This document shows positions 7,994 to 56,017 of a DNA stretch of 56,017 nt, in pieces. The notes beneath the pieces are model-generated. The model had not been told where the DNA came from, did not search any database, and saw only the letters and a program-made list of their open reading frames with translations. Every line of letters begins with the position of its first letter. Within the stretch, counting starts at the first letter, position 1. Location: NCBI GenBank assembly GCA_938048755.1, contig CALIUG010000091.1, forward strand, positions 1 through 56,017, in the 5' to 3' direction. Both the position numbers and the translations under genes were made by a program. The DNA comes from an uncultured Alphaproteobacteria bacterium (GTDB taxonomy: Bacteria > Pseudomonadota > Alphaproteobacteria > SP197).

Positions 7994-9129
7994 GACATAG
8001 CCTCCACGATCAGGTTGGAAAAATGCTGGTGTGGCGGGTCCCAGAAGCCCGAGAGGACACCGCCATCAAAGGCCGGCGACCGGCGGCCAATCTGCATCCA
8101 CTCGACCGCGCCGATATCCTCGCGATTCAATTCGTCCCACATGTCGGCCACACACTGTGCGGCTTCGGCGTACATCGGGTCGGTAGCAGCGTCACCGACC
8201 AGGAAGATATGCAGGTGCTCGACCGTGTGATCGGGCGCCGCCGGAAACACCTGAAACACGGTCAGCTGATCGGGCCAGAGCTGGAAACAGGTGCTGGGAA
8301 ACAGATGATAGCCGCCCGAAAACCGCGCCTGTTCGGGCGTCAGACCCGGGTGGTAGGGAAGCCCCAGCCCCCGGCCCTCCTGGGGTTCGCCAACCAGATA
8401 CTCGGTCCTCAGAAACTTGCCGTCGGGCACAAAGGCGCTGCGTTTGCTCATGGGATAGAAGGCATTGAGCCGGGGATGAATGGTCGCAATGTGGTGGTTG
8501 TCGAAGTAGTTTTCGAACACCAGCTTCCAGTTCGCCCGAAACTCCCAGGTCACCGTCTTGTAGAGACGCAGCGCCCCCAGATCATGATCGGGAAGCCGCC
8601 GGGCAAGCGGTGCGATGTAGTCCTCGAACGGCTCAGCCCTGCCGTCCAGATTGACGAAAATCGAGCGAAACCACATGGCCATGCGGATCGGCGTCAGGCC
8701 CGGCCCATCCCTGGGAACGTCATGCTCGCCTGCGCCATGAAAATGCGGACGCGTGCGCAATCTGCCGTCCAGACCATAGGCCCAGGCATGATAGGGGCAG
8801 GTCAGGACCGACTGATTGCTGCAGGCCTCATCCACCAAGACCACGCCGCGATGCCTGCAGACATTGTGGAAGGCCCGGATCTCACCATCGCGTCCGTGCA
8901 CCAGGACCACGGGCTTACCGGCGATCGTTGTCGGGAACACGTCGCCGGGTCGAGGCACCTGATCGACACATCCGGCATACATCCAGGTGCGCGCAAACAG
9001 CCGCTCGTTCTCAAGCGCCAGCCATTCGGGATCGGTATAGCAAGCATTAGGCAAGCAGGTGCCGCCTTCGCCAGTCGGACGTGAGAGCCGCTCCCGCAGA
9101 TCCGATGTGATGATGGTCTGGAAACTCAT
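7990..9129 (-). CDS. Rieske non-haem iron oxygenase, alpha subunit (tandem copy 1)
   Basis: A 379-aa protein. The Rieske 2Fe-2S ligands are C91-R-H93 and C111-PY-H114; the catalytic iron site is NYFDNHHIATIHP with bridging D210, H213 and H218, and an Asp in NREDIGAVEW. After the Rieske domain comes LRTRPHFHG, shared by all four tandem copies. The frame is open further upstream, but MSFQTII at 9129 is preferred because its ATGA overlaps the upstream stop at 9126 and its paralogue starts identically. It should hydroxylate an unactivated C-H, plausibly an N-methyl group. Its first 138 residues are nearly the same as those of the 10273-11436 protein, while the catalytic halves differ strongly. 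No reductase is encoded nearby. Confidence 0.88.
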   Translation of the reverse strand: MSFQTIITSDLRERLSRPTGEGGTCLPNACYTDPEWLALENERLFARTWMYAGCVDQVPRPGDVFPTTIAGKPVVLVHGRDGEIRAFHNVCRHRGVVLVDEACSNQSVLTCPYHAWAYGLDGRLRTRPHFHGAGEHDVPRDGPGLTPIRMAMWFRSIFVNLDGRAEPFEDYIAPLARRLPDHDLGALRLYKTVTWEFRANWKLVFENYFDNHHIATIHPRLNAFYPMSKRSAFVPDGKFLRTEYLVGEPQEGRGLGLPYHPGLTPEQARFSGGYHLFPSTCFQLWPDQLTVFQVFPAAPDHTVEHLHIFLVGDAATDPMYAEAAQCVADMWDELNREDIGAVEWMQIGRRSPAFDGGVLSGFWDPPHQHFSNLIVEAMS

Positions 9130-10276
9130 GACATCGCCTCGGCCACAAGGTCGGCGAAGTGCCGGGTTGCGGGGTCCCAGAACGGGGAAAAAGCGCCGCC
9201 ATCGAAGCCCGGCGAGCTTCGGGCCCGCTGCATGTTCTCGACGATCCTGAAATCTTCCGTGTTGAGCTCGGTCCACATGTCGTACACGTCCTGACGTTGT
9301 TGTGCGAGCGCCGGATCTTCAGCTCCCTCGCCGACAAAATAGAGATGAATGTATTCGATCGTCCGGTCCGGCGCTTCTGCGTGAAGCTGGAAGACCGCCA
9401 TCTGATCGGGCCATATCTGGATGCAGGTGGTGGGGAACAGATGGAAGTACCACTCGGTGTGCGCCGTATACGCATCAAGGCCCGGATAGTGCGGCATGCC
9501 AAGCCCGCGTCCTTCCTCCAGTTCGGGGATTTGCACGGTGGCGAAAAACCACGGTCCCTCGACGCTTGTCGCAGGACGCTCCGTGATGGCGGTAAACGCC
9601 TCGAGCTTGGGGTGCACGGCAGGCACGTGATAGGGATCGAAGAAGTTCTCGTAGACGAGCTTCCAGTTGGCCTGAATCTCGAATCGCAGCGATGAAGCGT
9701 GACGCAATACCGAAAAGTCATAAGCCTGCGTGCGCTTCGAAAAGGGCTTCCAATGCTGCTCGAATTCTGGCGCCTCTCCGGAAAGATCGACGAAGACCAG
9801 ATCGTTCCAAACAGCGCTTCGCACAGGCACGAGCCCCGGCGCATCCGGCCCGGGGTCGGTATCGTGGCGCCCGCCGCCGTGGAAATGCGGCCGCGTGCGC
9901 AGCTTGCCATCAAGACCATGGGCCAGGCATGGTACGGACAAGTCAGCAGCTTGCGGGCCTTGCACGCCTCGGGCACCAGGATCGCGCCGCGGTGGCGACA
10001 GACATTGTGAAACACCTGAAGGGAGTCCTCATCGTCGCGGAGCAGTAGCAACGGAACGCCTGCAACTTCCACAGGACACACATCGCCCTTGCCGGGTACA
10101 TCGTGCTGAAACCCCGCCAGCATCCAGGTCCTCCCAAAGAGATGTGCGTTCTCCAGCGAAAGCCAGCCGGCATCGGTGTAGCAGTGGTTGGGCAGGCCGG
10201 TCGCCTCTGCCGTGGGTTTGCCGATACTGCTCAGGACGTCGTCACTGAGCACATCGCGAATCAGGTTCATGGTCAT
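9126..10276 (-). pseudogene. Rieske oxygenase alpha subunit, frameshifted (tandem copy 2)
   Basis: The N-terminal part (from ATG 10276, MTMNLIRDV) is in one frame through CRHRG and LLTCPYHAW. The protein then continues in another frame from AHGLDGKLRTRPHFHG to the stop at 9126. Comparison with the sister genes indicates loss of one G in TGGGCC at about 9921-9925 (minus-strand TGGCCC instead of TGGGCCC). Downstream of the shift, all catalytic features remain: ANWKLVYENFFDPYHVPAVHP, and an Asp in NTEDFRIVE. It starts and ends with ATGA overlaps, so the gene was an integral operon member. Either it is a recent pseudogene or the missing base is a sequencing/assembly error. Confidence 0.82.
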
Positions 10277-11436
10277 GCGTTTTCATGCTCCAGCATCAAT
10301 TCGGCGACCTGACGGGCAAAAAAGTGCGTGCCGGGGTCCAAGAACGGAGAGAACGTCCCGCCATCAAAACCGGGGGAAACACGACCGCGCTGCATGGATT
10401 CCAGAGGATCGATATCTTCGCGGTTGAGGTTATCCCAGGTCTGTATCGCAGCCTGTCGCATCCGGTCATATTGCCCCGCCATGGCTTCGGGGGCGAAGAG
10501 CAGGTGGATGGTTTCGCGCGTGGTCTCCAGTCCGGTCGGCTCAGCGACCAGGATGGCGATCTGGTCGTACCAGACATTGATGCTGCAGATCGGGATCATG
10601 GTGAAGAACCGCCCCTCGCGGTGCAGCACATCGGGTAACCCCGGCAATGCCGGCAAACCCTTGCCTCTTCCCTCTTGTGGCGCCGCAATGACATGCCACG
10701 TCTTCAGCAGATGATCGGCGATGGGCACCATCGGGTGGCTGGTTTCCATTGGCGCGAACGCGCACAGCGCGGGATGGATCGCGAACTTGTGGTAAACGTC
10801 GATGAAGTTCTCGTGGATATGCTTCCAGTTCGCCGCGACCTCGAAGGTCAGCGCCCCGCCATAGGCCAGTTCCTGGGGTGCCCAGCCCTCCAGCGCATCG
10901 TCGGCCAGCAGCATGTGCTCGGCCAGCGGCGCGGCATCCCCGTCGATGTTGACAAACAGCATGCCCCGCCAGCTCTCACACCGGACAGTACGCAGTTTAC
11001 CGCGCGCATCGCCGTCTTCCAGGACATCATGTTCCCCGCCTCCGCGAAAGTGCGGACGCGTGCGCAGCGTTCCATCCAGACCATAGGCCCATGCGTGGTA
11101 GGGACAGGTCAAAACAGACTTGCCGCTGCACGGTTCCTCGACCAGCACCGCTCCGCGATGGCGGCAGAGATTGTGAAACGCACGGATCCTGCCGTCGCGT
11201 CCATGCACTAGGATCACCGGCTTGCCCGCGATGGTCGTGGGGAAAACGTCTCCCGGCCGGGAAACCTGATCGACGCAACCGGCATACATCCACGTGCGCG
11301 CGAAAAGGCGCTCGTTCTCCAGCTCCAGCCATTCCGGGTCGGTGTAGCAGGCGTTGGGCAGACATGTGCCGCCCTTACCGGTTGGACATGACAGGCGCGC
11401 CCTGATCTCGGGCGTGATGATCGATTGAAAGCTCAA
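10273..11436 (-). CDS. Rieske oxygenase alpha subunit, apparent domain mosaic (tandem copy 3)
   Basis: A 387-aa protein with Rieske ligands C91/H93 and C111/H114, and iron site ENFIDVYHKFAIHP (D213, H216, H221) with Asp in NREDIDPLE. The start is TTG at 11436 inside a TTGA overlap with the upstream stop. Residues 1-138 differ from tandem copy 1 (7990-9129) at only about 20 positions by eye. From about residue 139 onward it instead follows copy 4 (11433-12605), including ANWKHIHENFIDVYHKFAI and LLKTWHVIAAPQEGRGKGL. It therefore looks like a recombinant that joins copy-1-type electron-transfer and copy-4-type catalytic domains, with the crossover near the CPYHAWAYGLDG block that all copies share. 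Confidence 0.88.
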   Translation of the reverse strand: MSFQSIITPEIRARLSCPTGKGGTCLPNACYTDPEWLELENERLFARTWMYAGCVDQVSRPGDVFPTTIAGKPVILVHGRDGRIRAFHNLCRHRGAVLVEEPCSGKSVLTCPYHAWAYGLDGTLRTRPHFRGGGEHDVLEDGDARGKLRTVRCESWRGMLFVNIDGDAAPLAEHMLLADDALEGWAPQELAYGGALTFEVAANWKHIHENFIDVYHKFAIHPALCAFAPMETSHPMVPIADHLLKTWHVIAAPQEGRGKGLPALPGLPDVLHREGRFFTMIPICSINVWYDQIAILVAEPTGLETTRETIHLLFAPEAMAGQYDRMRQAAIQTWDNLNREDIDPLESMQRGRVSPGFDGGTFSPFLDPGTHFFARQVAELMLEHENA

Positions 11437-51553: not shown

Positions 51554-53635
51554 ATGACCCGTGATCCCCGCTACGACATCCTGTTCGAGCCCCTGAAAAT
51601 CGGGCCCAAGACCGCACCCAACCGCTTCTACCAGGTGCCCCATTGCAACGGCATGGGCCGGGTCTACCCCAACGCCATGGTCGGCATGCGCGGCATGAAG
51701 GCCCAGGGCGGCTGGGGCATCGTGTGCACCGAACAGTGCGACTTCTACGCCAGTGGCGATGCCTCGCCCTATGCCGAGACCAACATGTGGGACAAGGGCG
51801 ACGAGGTCTATCTCGGACGCATGTGTGAGGAGGTTCACAAGTACGGCAGCCTTGCCGGCATCGAACTGGTCCACAACGGCCACGACACGCCCAATCTCTA
51901 TAGCCGGGAGGTTCCGATCGGCCCCATGGACCGGCCGATGAACTGGAGTCTTGCACCGATCCAGGCACGCGCAATGGACAAGCAGGACATTCGCGACTAC
52001 CGCCGGGCGCACAGACAGGCCGCGATCCGGGCACGCGACATCGGCTTCGATATGGTGATCGTCTATGCCGGCCACGACGGTACGGTGCCCAGCCACTTTC
52101 TGGCCAAGCGGCACAACCAGCGCACCGACGAATACGGTGGCAGTCTCGAGAACCGGCTGCGCCTGTTCCGTGAGCTTCTCGAAGAGGCAAAGGATGCGGT
52201 GGGCGGCGATATCGCGGTCACGGTGCGCTTCGCCGTCGACGAGATGATGGGTCCCGATGGTCTGGAATGGCACGCCGAGGGTCGCGAGGCGGTCGAGATG
52301 CTGGCCGAAATCCCCGACCTCTGGGATGTCAACGTCTCCGACTGGGACAATGACTCCAAGACCTCGCGTTTTGCTCCCGAAGGCTATCAGGAGGAATATG
52401 TCGCCTTCGTCAAACAGGTCACGACCAAGCCGGTCTCCACCGTCGGGCGCTACACCTCTCCTGACGCCATGGTCTCGGCGATCAAACGCGGCATCGTTGA
52501 CCTGATTGGTGCGGCACGCCCCTCGATTGCCGATCCCTTCCTGCCCCGCAAGGTCGAGGAGGGCCGGATCGAGGACATCCGTGAATGCATCGGCTGCAAT
52601 GTCTGCGTGGGCTGGACCCAGATGACCGCCCCGGCACGCTGCACCCAGAACCCCACCTTCAGTGAGGAATGGCGCAAGGACTGGCACCCGGAAACCCTGC
52701 CGGCTGCAGATTCGCAGGACCATGTTCTTATTGTCGGCTCCGGCCCGTCCGGTCTCGAGGCCGCACGGGCAGCAGGATTGCGTGGCTATCGCGTGACTCT
52801 TGCCGAGGCTCAGGACGAGCTTGGCGGGCGCGTCACGCTTGAAAGCGCCCTGCCCGGTTTTTCCGCCTGGGCGCGCGTGCGCGACTACCGCGTCGGCCAG
52901 ATCCAGAAGATGACCAATGTCGAGATCTACCGCGCCAGCAGGCTCGACGCGGATCAGGTTCTCGAGCTCGGTGCCGACCATGTCGCCATCGCAACAGGTG
53001 CAAGCTGGCGTCGCGACGGCTACGGACGCCACCTCACGTCACCGGTACCGGGAACCGATGCCGATCACGTTCTTACACCCGATGACATTCTTGCCGGGCG
53101 ACGCCCGTCGGGACAGAAGGTCATGCTCTACGATGACGACCACTACTACATGGCCAGCGTGATCGCAGAACTGCTCAGCAACGAAGGGCACGACGTCACA
53201 CTTGTGACGCCCCTGGCCACGATTGCCGCCTGGATGGTCCATACGCTGGAACACGGTGCCAACCAGGGACGCCTTCTGGAATCGGGCATCACGCTGATGC
53301 CCAACACAAACCTTCGTGCCGTGGAACCAGGGCAGGTGTTGCTGCATGACTCCGTCAAGGGTCAGGATGTCGAACATCAGGCTGACTCTGTCGTCATGGT
53401 GACGTCCCGTTCGCCCCAGGACGGGCTCTTTCATGAGATCAAAGCGGCCCTTGAGGCTCGACCCGATGTCAAGGCGCCCACACTGCGACGGATCGGCGAC
53501 TGCCAGGCGCCGGGCATCATTGCAACCGCCACCTATGAGGGCCACCGCTATGCCCGCGAACTCGGCAAGGAAATCGACCCCGTCGATGTTCCGTTCCGCC
53601 GCGAACGCATCGTGATTGAGCAGGCAAATCAGTGA
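51554..53635 (+). CDS. TMADH/DMADH-family iron-sulfur flavoprotein (copy 3)
   Basis: A 693-aa protein (MTRDPRYDILFEPLKIGPKT; AGGA site). NRFYQVPHC places C31 for 6-S-cysteinyl FMN; Q61 (CTEQCD) is in place of TMADH Tyr60. The triad Tyr/His is in VIVYAGHDG and the Asp in DWDNDSKTSRF. CX2CX2CX11C is CIGCNVCVGW ... ARCTQN. GSGPSGLEAARAAGLRG opens the second half. The TMADH Trp105 position is Val (IELVHNG), so the aromatic cage for a trimethylammonium group is not complete. It lies between the PMT-like methyltransferase and a hydroxyacid dehydrogenase plus the Rieske-less oxygenase. Probably a tertiary/secondary amine dehydrogenase with N-demethylase activity. Confidence 0.85.
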   Translation: MTRDPRYDILFEPLKIGPKTAPNRFYQVPHCNGMGRVYPNAMVGMRGMKAQGGWGIVCTEQCDFYASGDASPYAETNMWDKGDEVYLGRMCEEVHKYGSLAGIELVHNGHDTPNLYSREVPIGPMDRPMNWSLAPIQARAMDKQDIRDYRRAHRQAAIRARDIGFDMVIVYAGHDGTVPSHFLAKRHNQRTDEYGGSLENRLRLFRELLEEAKDAVGGDIAVTVRFAVDEMMGPDGLEWHAEGREAVEMLAEIPDLWDVNVSDWDNDSKTSRFAPEGYQEEYVAFVKQVTTKPVSTVGRYTSPDAMVSAIKRGIVDLIGAARPSIADPFLPRKVEEGRIEDIRECIGCNVCVGWTQMTAPARCTQNPTFSEEWRKDWHPETLPAADSQDHVLIVGSGPSGLEAARAAGLRGYRVTLAEAQDELGGRVTLESALPGFSAWARVRDYRVGQIQKMTNVEIYRASRLDADQVLELGADHVAIATGASWRRDGYGRHLTSPVPGTDADHVLTPDDILAGRRPSGQKVMLYDDDHYYMASVIAELLSNEGHDVTLVTPLATIAAWMVHTLEHGANQGRLLESGITLMPNTNLRAVEPGQVLLHDSVKGQDVEHQADSVVMVTSRSPQDGLFHEIKAALEARPDVKAPTLRRIGDCQAPGIIATATYEGHRYARELGKEIDPVDVPFRRERIVIEQANQ

Positions 53636-53699: not shown

Positions 53700-54668
53700 A
53701 TGGCTGCGCCACTACGCATTCTGATCCATACGGTTGATGCTGAAGGCATTGCCGCGAAGGTCGCAGAACGCCATCCGGATGCCGGGATCACGACCTGCAA
53801 CAGCTTTGCAGGCCTGCCTGAAGCAGCCAAGTGCGATCCTCATGTCGTCTTCTCGGACCTTTTCGAATCAAAGCGTTATCCCCGCGAAGCACTGATGAGT
53901 CAGCCTTCGCTGGGTTTCATTCATGTCTCGGGTGCGGGCATCAATCATCTGGCGCCCTGGGACACCGATAAGATCCAGGTCTGTAATGCCGGCGGTGTGC
54001 AGGACGAAGGTCTGGCGCAGTTCGCCATCGCGCGACTCATCGCCATGAACTGCAACTTTTTCCTCTATCACGACCAACAGAAGCGGCACGAATGGAAGGC
54101 CCACGACGTTCCCCACTCGACCGGCGGTTCGCTGACCGTGGTGGGGCTGGGCAGAATCGGTCAGGCCTGCGCGCGCGTCGCCCATGCCCTGGGCATGACG
54201 GTCTATGGCGTGCGCGCGCGCCCTGCACCCTGGGAACATGTGGAAACCGTGGTGCCGCCCGCGCGGATGCACGAGGTTCTGGCGCAGTCGGACTATGTCA
54301 TCGTGATCACGCCGCTGACCGAGGAAACGTCCGGCATGATCGATGATGCAGCCTTTGCCGCCATGAAACCGGGTGTCATGTTCCACGATATGTCTCGCGG
54401 CGGCGTGGTCGATGAAAATGCGTTGATGTCAGCTCTCAAGAGCGGACAGGTCCGCGCGGCGTCGCGCGATGTCTTTACCCAGGAGCCCCTGCCCGATGAC
54501 TCTCCCCTGTGGGACCTTGAGAACCTCTTCATCACACCCCACAACGCCGGCATGATCACCGGTGAGGACTATGACCGATTGAGCACAGAGGTTTTCCTCG
54601 ACAATCTGGATCGTTTCGTAAGAGGCGAGCCTCTGGTCAACGTCACCGATCCCGTTCGGGGTTACTGA
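53700..54668 (+). CDS. D-isomer-specific 2-hydroxyacid dehydrogenase (copy 2)
   Basis: A 322-aa protein (AAGGGA site). It has Rossmann GSLTVVGLGRIGQACARVAH at about 142-160 and the catalytic set: Arg in DMSRGGVVDENAL, Glu in FTQEPLPDDSPLW and His in LFITPHNAG. The HVSGAGINHL loop is at about 75-85. It should interconvert a 2-oxo acid and D-2-hydroxy acid with NAD(H) or NADP(H). It is 65 nt after TMADH-like copy 3 and 4 nt before the Rieske-less oxygenase, so the last two are probably co-translated. Confidence 0.87.
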   Translation: MAAPLRILIHTVDAEGIAAKVAERHPDAGITTCNSFAGLPEAAKCDPHVVFSDLFESKRYPREALMSQPSLGFIHVSGAGINHLAPWDTDKIQVCNAGGVQDEGLAQFAIARLIAMNCNFFLYHDQQKRHEWKAHDVPHSTGGSLTVVGLGRIGQACARVAHALGMTVYGVRARPAPWEHVETVVPPARMHEVLAQSDYVIVITPLTEETSGMIDDAAFAAMKPGVMFHDMSRGGVVDENALMSALKSGQVRAASRDVFTQEPLPDDSPLWDLENLFITPHNAGMITGEDYDRLSTEVFLDNLDRFVRGEPLVNVTDPVRGY

Positions 54669-54672
54669 GACC

Positions 54673-55656
54673 ATGACGCTCCTGCAAACCAAGCCATCGT
54701 TCGTGCCGCTCACCATTGCGCCCGAGCTGTCGCCGACCCTGCCGTCCTGGGTTTACCACGATCCCGACGTTCTGGATCTCGAGCGTGAGCGTGTGTTCGG
54801 ACGCAACTGGGTCTTTGTCGCCCATGCATCAGAGGTCGCGCCTGGACAGCCGTTCCATGGCGAGGTCAATGACGAACCGGTGATCCTCACTCGCAAGGTG
54901 GATGGCAGCCTGACTGCAACCGCCAGTAACCCGGCATCGGAAAGCCTGGCCCTCCGTGCCGAGACCCTGGCCGGCCTCGTCTTCGTCAACATGGATCCCC
55001 AGGCAGCTGGCCTGGCGGCACAGGCCCCCGACCTTGAGGCTTCGATCCGCGGCTTTGTTCCCGAGGCCGACGCGCTGGTGAAATGTCACAAGGTCGTTCA
55101 TGAGGTCGCAAGCAACTGGAAGGTCTTCGTGGAGAATTCGCTCGAGTGTTATCACTGCGAGCCCTGCCACCCCGGATTTTCCACCGACGTGGACATGGAA
55201 ACCTACCGCTCGTTCAGCGATGGAATCGTCACCATCCACACCAGCCAGCGTCAGCAAACACCCGAAATGGCCGGCAAGGGTCCGGCCGAGGCCGACCTGG
55301 TCGAGAAGTTCATGTACTGGTACGTCTGGCCCAGCACGGAAATCGATGCAACGCCGGGCGACCACCCACAGCTCTCCATCTATACGCGCAAGGCCGTGGG
55401 CCCGCATCGCCACCAGGTGACCGGCCACTACTACCGGTTGCCGGGGGATGGACTTTCGTCGGCCGAAAAGCAGGCTCTTGACGAGGATGCGACGGTTCGT
55501 GAGGACATTGCCATCTGCGAGGCGGTCCAGCGTGGTCTTGCCTCGCGCGGCTACTCTCAGGGCCGCTTCATTGTCGATGCAGAGCGCTCACACATCAGCG
55601 AACACTCGGTGCATCACTTCCAGTGCATGGTCTCAGACGCTCTTGATCTGCGATGA
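54673..55656 (+). CDS. Rieske-oxygenase alpha-subunit homologue lacking the Rieske cluster ligands
   Basis: A 327-aa protein homologous end-to-end to Rieske oxygenases of the ECYHC type: VYHDPDVLDLERERVFGRNW at the start, AGLVFVNMDPQAAGL, and SNWKVFVENSLECYHCEPCH with E158, H161 and H166; D278 in VREDIAICEAVQRGL completes the iron site. Between DGSL (about 80) and LALRAETLAG (about 91), where the family has CxHRG ... CPYHAW, there are no Cys or His ligands: roughly 47 residues are missing relative to the 27107-28252 protein, exactly covering both Rieske loops. The frame is intact. The catalytic site seems preserved, so it may use another electron source, need a Rieske partner, or have a non-redox role. 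Confidence 0.83.
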   Translation: MTLLQTKPSFVPLTIAPELSPTLPSWVYHDPDVLDLERERVFGRNWVFVAHASEVAPGQPFHGEVNDEPVILTRKVDGSLTATASNPASESLALRAETLAGLVFVNMDPQAAGLAAQAPDLEASIRGFVPEADALVKCHKVVHEVASNWKVFVENSLECYHCEPCHPGFSTDVDMETYRSFSDGIVTIHTSQRQQTPEMAGKGPAEADLVEKFMYWYVWPSTEIDATPGDHPQLSIYTRKAVGPHRHQVTGHYYRLPGDGLSSAEKQALDEDATVREDIAICEAVQRGLASRGYSQGRFIVDAERSHISEHSVHHFQCMVSDALDLR

Positions 55657-55694: not shown

Positions 55695-56017
55695 TTATGG
55701 CCGGACCTCATGGGCGGCAAGCGCCGCCTCGTTCATGTGTACGCCAAGCCCCGGCCTATCGCCGATCGTGACCGTGCCGCCCGCTATCCCGATATCGAGC
55801 GCACCGAACTGGCTGCAGAACGGTTCGTAATCGGGAAAGTATTCACCAATCAGGGCATTGGGCATGACCGCACAGGCATGTGCCATGGCTGCCACGGCCA
55901 CGAGGGGGCTGTTCCAGCAATGCGGAGCAATCTTCACACCGTGCTTCCCCGCCAACTCTGCGATCTCGAGCATCTCGAGAATCCCGCCGACACCAACGAT
56001 GTCAGGGTTGAGAATGT
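55695..56017 (-). CDS. Mandelate racemase/muconate lactonizing (enolase-superfamily) enzyme, 3' end
   Basis: The minus-strand frame enters at the window edge (ILNPDIVGVGGILEML), continues EIAELAGKHGVKIAPHCWNS and ends at TAA 55695-55697. ILNPDIVGVGGI is the C-terminal barrel strand with the conserved Asp region of MR/MLE proteins, and IAPHCWNSPLV the following strand. About 107 residues are visible; the N-terminal capping domain and the catalytic Lys residues are outside. A betaine epimerase of this superfamily (HpbD) acts in hydroxyproline-betaine catabolism, so this could be an epimerase or dehydratase of the local pathway; the substrate cannot be told from this part. Confidence 0.8.
   Translation of the reverse strand, partial: ILNPDIVGVGGILEMLEIAELAGKHGVKIAPHCWNSPLVAVAAMAHACAVMPNALIGEYFPDYEPFCSQFGALDIGIAGGTVTIGDRPGLGVHMNEAALAAHEVRP

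Follow-up and report, generated by a model that had tools for sequence, protein, structure and literature searches.

A contig of 56,017 nucleotides from an uncultured alphaproteobacterium (CALIUG010000091.1, assembly GCA_938048755.1, positions 1 to 56,017, hereafter the window; genome G000) carries a gene for a shortened homologue of the alpha subunit of CntA/GbcA-type oxygenases. The gene lies at 54673..55656 on the forward strand, as do all of its features given below, starts with ATG, has zero internal stops and encodes 327 aa. The sole Pfam domain in the protein is the Ring_hydroxyl_A catalytic domain (PF00848; residues 134-324, 55072..55644; E-value 6.5e-24; 85.4 bits against a cut-off of 24.9). 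The Rieske domain PF00355 gave no match in the protein at E <= 0.001, and no C-X-H...C-X2-H Rieske ligand motif was found in the reading frame. Judged by its sequence, the product is a Rieske oxygenase alpha-subunit homologue of the CntA/GbcA type without its own Rieske ligands.

Alignment to full-length homologues locates the loss. The N-terminal flank (residues ~12-84) aligns with full-length Rieske oxygenases, and residues 22-82 (54736..54918) correspond to the N-terminal portion of the Rieske-domain scaffold, which persists without cluster ligands and whose strands are predicted. A 10-residue linker follows (residues 83-92, 54919..54948). It replaces the stretch with both Cys-His loops, which spans 57-58 residues in five full-length homologues from the same order and is reduced to 10 residues in the window and in a congener (G002), and to 9 in a genome of another genus (G014), a net loss of 47-49 residues. 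The linker is in frame, which rules out a hidden frameshift concealing the Rieske part. The original prediction, made from this DNA alone, had described the family's N-terminal flank as kept and about 47 residues with both ligand loops as cleanly absent with no frameshift, and both points are borne out. It had also described the protein as having lost its Rieske domain ligands; the ligands are indeed gone, but the beta-strand scaffold of the domain is kept, and it is not the whole domain that was lost. In an AlphaFold2 (AF2) monomer model, based on an alignment of 17 rows of which 15 are full-length relatives, the scaffold around the deleted lobe is predicted to fold, and the protein as a whole is predicted to adopt the fold of a Rieske-oxygenase subunit with a Rieske-scaffold stub and an intact iron site.

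The mononuclear iron site is of the ECYHC type, as had been proposed (E158, H161, H166 and D278). Its 2-His-1-carboxylate ligands, H161, H166 and D278, match His, His and Asp, respectively, in 83/83 full-length rows each, and the E158 position is Glu or Asp in all 83. E158 (55144..55146) is the counterpart of the CntA bridging glutamate E205. Residues 159-163 (55147..55161) contain iron ligand H161 together with C159 and C162, the counterparts of CntA Cys206 and Cys209 and an instance of the Cys-X-X-Cys seen beside the iron site in some group V Rieske oxygenases. C165 and iron ligand H166 are encoded at 55165..55170, and iron ligand D278 at 55504..55506. The metal ligands are invariant among the three shortened orthologues (G000, G002 and G014), and the bridging Glu is kept in five of five shortened proteins. 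Rieske oxygenase alpha subunits form C3-symmetric oligomers, commonly alpha3 trimers (PMC12445004). In CntA, the reported distance from cluster to iron is 44 A inside one subunit and 12.2 A across the interface, where the bridging Glu passes electrons from cluster to iron; E205 mutants were inactive, with no major change in secondary structure (PMC7948474). The Cys206/Cys209 pair is reported to help hold the iron ferrous (PMC10952381).

Because its own Rieske ligands are absent, the usual oxygenase reaction would need another electron source. As related bacteria keep the same shortened gene, it probably encodes a working protein that obtains its electrons some other way, and the retention without the lobe of a glutamate that serves electron transfer in CntA suggests that the iron is still supplied by a Rieske cluster in trans. 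The shortened protein would most likely bind Fe(II) and activate O2, with electrons reaching the iron via E158 from a cluster across the subunit interface; that cluster could sit in a full-length paralogue that forms a mixed trimer with the shortened protein, or in a stand-alone Rieske protein. An iron subunit fed in this way is the best explanation as a whole, to which we give a probability of roughly 0.4.

The same gap occurs in open frames in the congener (79% identity) and in the genome of another genus (54%), which rules out an accident confined to one assembly or gene. Had the gap been limited to this gene, the original prediction would have taken it as a sign of a dead copy; its recurrence in two other genomes argues the other way. 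At E <= 1e-60, three genomes, including the window's own, matched among 143 relatives (up to 15 candidates scored per genome), and searches that scored all candidates in 16 genomes of the order found the shortened clade only in G000, G002 and G014. Samples of the larger class and phylum were searched at E <= 1e-55 with up to five candidates scored per genome, as in the search that gave the G011 counterpart described below. These returned 2/385 (the window's genome and one full-length protein, L052, with the Rieske motif present) and 1/398 (the window's own genome), respectively. The Rieske motif was present in 19 of 19 loci checked among the 23 relative loci other than L023, the G002 locus. 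No relative was found in viral contigs; plasmid records gave 73 matches (27.8-30.9% identity among the best 20 of the 73) and phage records two (28.6% identity).

Between G000 and G002, the ratio of nonsynonymous to synonymous substitution rates (dN/dS) is 0.153 for the whole shortened gene (confidence interval, CI, 0.107-0.215). By point estimate its catalytic part is under the strongest constraint, at 0.122 (0.073-0.198). The same comparison gives 0.052 (0.030-0.081) for a full-length paralogue and 0.073 (0.046-0.108) for the neighbouring dehydrogenase; constraint on the shortened gene is thus about three times less strict than on the former and about twice less strict than on the latter. 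This lower constraint, together with the predicted persistence of the scaffold and fold, would suit a subunit with a non-catalytic or regulatory role, which would associate with full-length oxygenases and modulate them. However, a pure scaffold needs neither invariant metal ligands nor a catalytic part under the strongest constraint, and such a role is unlikely.

The order also contains other shortened or broken oxygenase genes. G013 has two further shortened homologues, C42 and C37, which group together (99/93) and separately from the window clade (100/100) in a tree of 89 catalytic pieces, from which rows that were identical, shorter than 180 aa or without the iron motif had been dropped. 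A test of the G013 pair and the window clade as one clade was borderline (approximately unbiased test, p-AU 0.0505); the tree's group of six held a piece of the interrupted gene G013:C61, which was excluded from the label count in that test. The C42 gene (8542-9495 in L080:7042-10835) lies directly after a glycine dehydrogenase gene (PF21478) and before a gene for an AMP-binding-type enzyme. Its counterpart in G011 (L176, G011:C34:23241-23621) has lost most of its middle and survives as a remnant, and the frame upstream reads as the same glycine dehydrogenase gene. Loss of the lobe can therefore mark a decaying gene as well, and the G013 pair, with its borderline p-AU and its C42 counterpart reduced to a remnant, was set aside as independent confirmation. 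G013:C61 was ruled out as Rieske-less by deletion, because a stop inside the Rieske part interrupts it. Other short PF00848 frames fetched from G000 and G002, a subset of those listed, were contig-end truncations or had the Rieske part in another frame. The window itself holds, on the reverse strand at 9050-10282, an oxygenase gene whose Rieske and iron-site parts are split between two overlapping frames (9050-10282 and 9129-10028) and which by its sequence is either interrupted or affected by a sequence error.

Oxygenase genes in this order do decay, as the shortened G013 gene beside glycine dehydrogenase, its small remnant in G011 and the break in the Rieske part of G013:C61 illustrate, and the window gene evolves faster than its paralogue and its neighbour. 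These observations would fit a decaying gene under residual selection. In contrast, the three orthologous frames are intact and share a common gap at dS of about 0.8 and 1.5, with dN/dS of 0.15 and 0.28 and an invariant metal site, which makes decay very unlikely. Conservation in three genomes is what sets the window clade apart from the G013/G011 case. The recurring gap, the open frames and the dN/dS values show that the shortened gene is not a dead copy and is instead a selected, lineage-restricted oxygenase subunit. Given the shared gap and the tree, the cluster-binding lobe was presumably lost in an ancestor common to all three genes, within one alphaproteobacterial order, and by sequence the gene has been kept under selection since.

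The three orthologues have residues of their own in common, namely C138, H139, H143, S156, C165, E223 and D225. C138, H143, C165, E223 and D225 each occur in 0/32 full-length ECYHC rows and H139 in 2/32. Across all 83 full-length rows, which include these 32 and hold many near relatives, so that the counts are not independent, C138 occurs in one, H139 in nine, H143 in three, Ser at 156 in five, D225 in three, and C165 and E223 in none. C138-H139 is encoded at 55084..55089. S156 (55138..55140), present in 3/3 orthologues, takes the position of CntA Y203, which is Tyr in 14, Phe in 12 and Cys in six of the 32 ECYHC rows; the aromatic residue is thus not kept. A changed substrate is likely for the shortened clade on this evidence.

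These residues bear on the main rival explanation, a Rieske-independent mononuclear iron enzyme with a remodelled active site that would take all of its electrons from substrate, a small reductant or peroxide. Consistent with it are the retained iron ligands, the clade residues that are absent from the ECYHC rows (S156 among them) or, for H139, rare there, the lack of a donor linked in all three genomes, and the reported ability of CntA itself to use a peroxide shunt (PMC10952381). Its difficulty is the bridging Glu, which has a shown electron-transfer role in CntA and is kept in every shortened protein, and this explanation is doubtful. An O2-activating enzyme free of any Rieske cluster, with its pocket remodelled by the clade-specific Cys, His and acidic residues and its electrons drawn from substrate or a small reductant, is rather unlikely.

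A D-2-hydroxyacid dehydrogenase gene lies directly upstream of the shortened gene (53700..54668, forward strand), and the C-terminal part of a mandelate racemase/enolase-type gene is convergent on the other side (55695..56015, reverse strand). Both flank the shortened gene in G002 as in the window. The dehydrogenase order is not kept in G014, where the gene is surrounded by genes for a sulfate permease and an arginase-family protein, with a TauD-family gene farther off. A TMADH/OYE-like flavoprotein gene with Cys345/348/351/363 is located at 51554..53635 (forward strand), and the original prediction had offered this 4Fe-4S flavoprotein as an example of an electron donor. However, same-gap homologues do not always neighbour such a gene, as no flavoprotein was seen among the open reading frames listed around the shortened gene in G002 or G014. 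The nearest homologues are on other contigs, namely C12 in G002 (91% identity, match to residues 1-620; shortened gene on C8) and C128 in G014 (83%; shortened gene on C96). In a search that covered 6 of the 16 genomes, homologues were also present in G007 (82%), G011 (68%) and G013 (69%), where the shortened clade was not found. A dedicated role for this flavoprotein is therefore not supported, while the broader claim that electrons come from elsewhere keeps its footing in a selected homologue without Rieske ligands. G000 has 13 TMADH-like flavoprotein matches at E <= 1e-60, the 51554-53635 gene included.

G000 (4.16 Mb) is rich in both oxygenase families, with at least 53 PF00848 and 53 PF00355 matches, fragments included; the PF00848 survey covered 4 of the 16 genomes, and its G000 count is a lower bound that leaves aside the weakest matches. 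Of the Rieske matches, 45/53 fall in 357-497-aa frames and so match in size the oxygenase subunits that could act as partners. The longest open frame (551 aa; L153:973-2625, reverse strand) combines a Rieske domain with one of the glutamate synthase type (Glu_synthase). The next longest (537 aa; L152:596-2206, reverse strand) has an N-terminal Rieske domain, and Pfam gives no match at E <= 0.001 in the ~420 residues that follow. A lone Rieske ferredoxin (G000:C72:61109-61366) adjoins a fatty acid desaturase gene (PF00487) and was set aside as donor. A loss of the same kind is reported for NdmC, which is devoid of a Rieske cluster and relies on the additional one carried by the reductase NdmD, of ~65 kDa (PMC4408171, PMC10380055), and a dedicated Rieske-bearing reductase could likewise be encoded elsewhere in the genome. 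However, none was found among the 53 matches in G000, the one genome covered, which is 92.7% complete; the 551-aa frame is not such a reductase, and the only Pfam matches of the 537-aa frame are of the Rieske type. Additionally, the 29 PDB sequences matched by a profile at E <= 10 include none labelled NdmA or NdmB, the NdmC sequence itself not being compared. Such an NdmC-type system is very unlikely.

Several observations weigh against delivery of electrons by a Rieske cluster in trans. An NdmD-like reductase was not found in G000, and the three loci have no linked partner gene in common. Constraint on the scaffold core (residues 44-83) is weak (dN/dS 0.344, CI 0.147-0.764), contrary to what a firm trimer contact would predict, and the predominance of full-length relatives in the AF2 alignment biases the model towards their fold. 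The clade's own conserved residues (138-143, 156, 165, 223 and 225) suit altered chemistry equally well as a change of donor. A hetero-oligomer, which had been raised among the first explanations, is nonetheless the preferred class of explanation. Understanding of Rieske oxygenases centres on cross-subunit transfer from the cluster, and a homologue under selection in which the iron site and bridging Glu persist while the cluster lobe alone is gone offers a natural experiment on this rule. It raises the question of whether mixed trimers or trans donors exist outside NdmCDE, or whether such an iron site is able to function with no Rieske cluster. Such a protein is also easy to mislabel, in that Pfam reports only the ring-hydroxylating catalytic domain and is silent on the missing cluster.

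Among known systems, the closest solved relative by sequence and fold is CntA of Acinetobacter baumannii (group V). The iron ligands, the bridging Glu and the Cys pair near the iron all align with those of the shortened protein, whereas CntA has its Rieske domain complete and uses Tyr203 for the quaternary ammonium group, and the shortened protein lacks the cluster lobe and has Ser at that position. The best NCBIfam match is the glycine betaine monooxygenase GbcA (NF058607, E-value 2.7e-15), but its 55.8 bits are far below the cut-off of 670, and the shortened protein is therefore not an equivalog. NdmC, of the NdmCDE 7-methylxanthine N7-demethylase from Pseudomonas putida CBB5, is similar in being a catalytic subunit without its own Rieske cluster, but differs in working with the extra-Rieske reductase NdmD, a counterpart of which was not found in G000, and with the GST-like NdmE. 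Phrase searches of the open-licence literature for Rieske-lacking oxygenases gave nothing on point among the papers listed, although print beyond it may hold some. An oxygenase subunit without a Rieske cluster is already published in NdmC, which the original prediction did not mention, and what is new is a CntA/GbcA-type clade without the cluster lobe.
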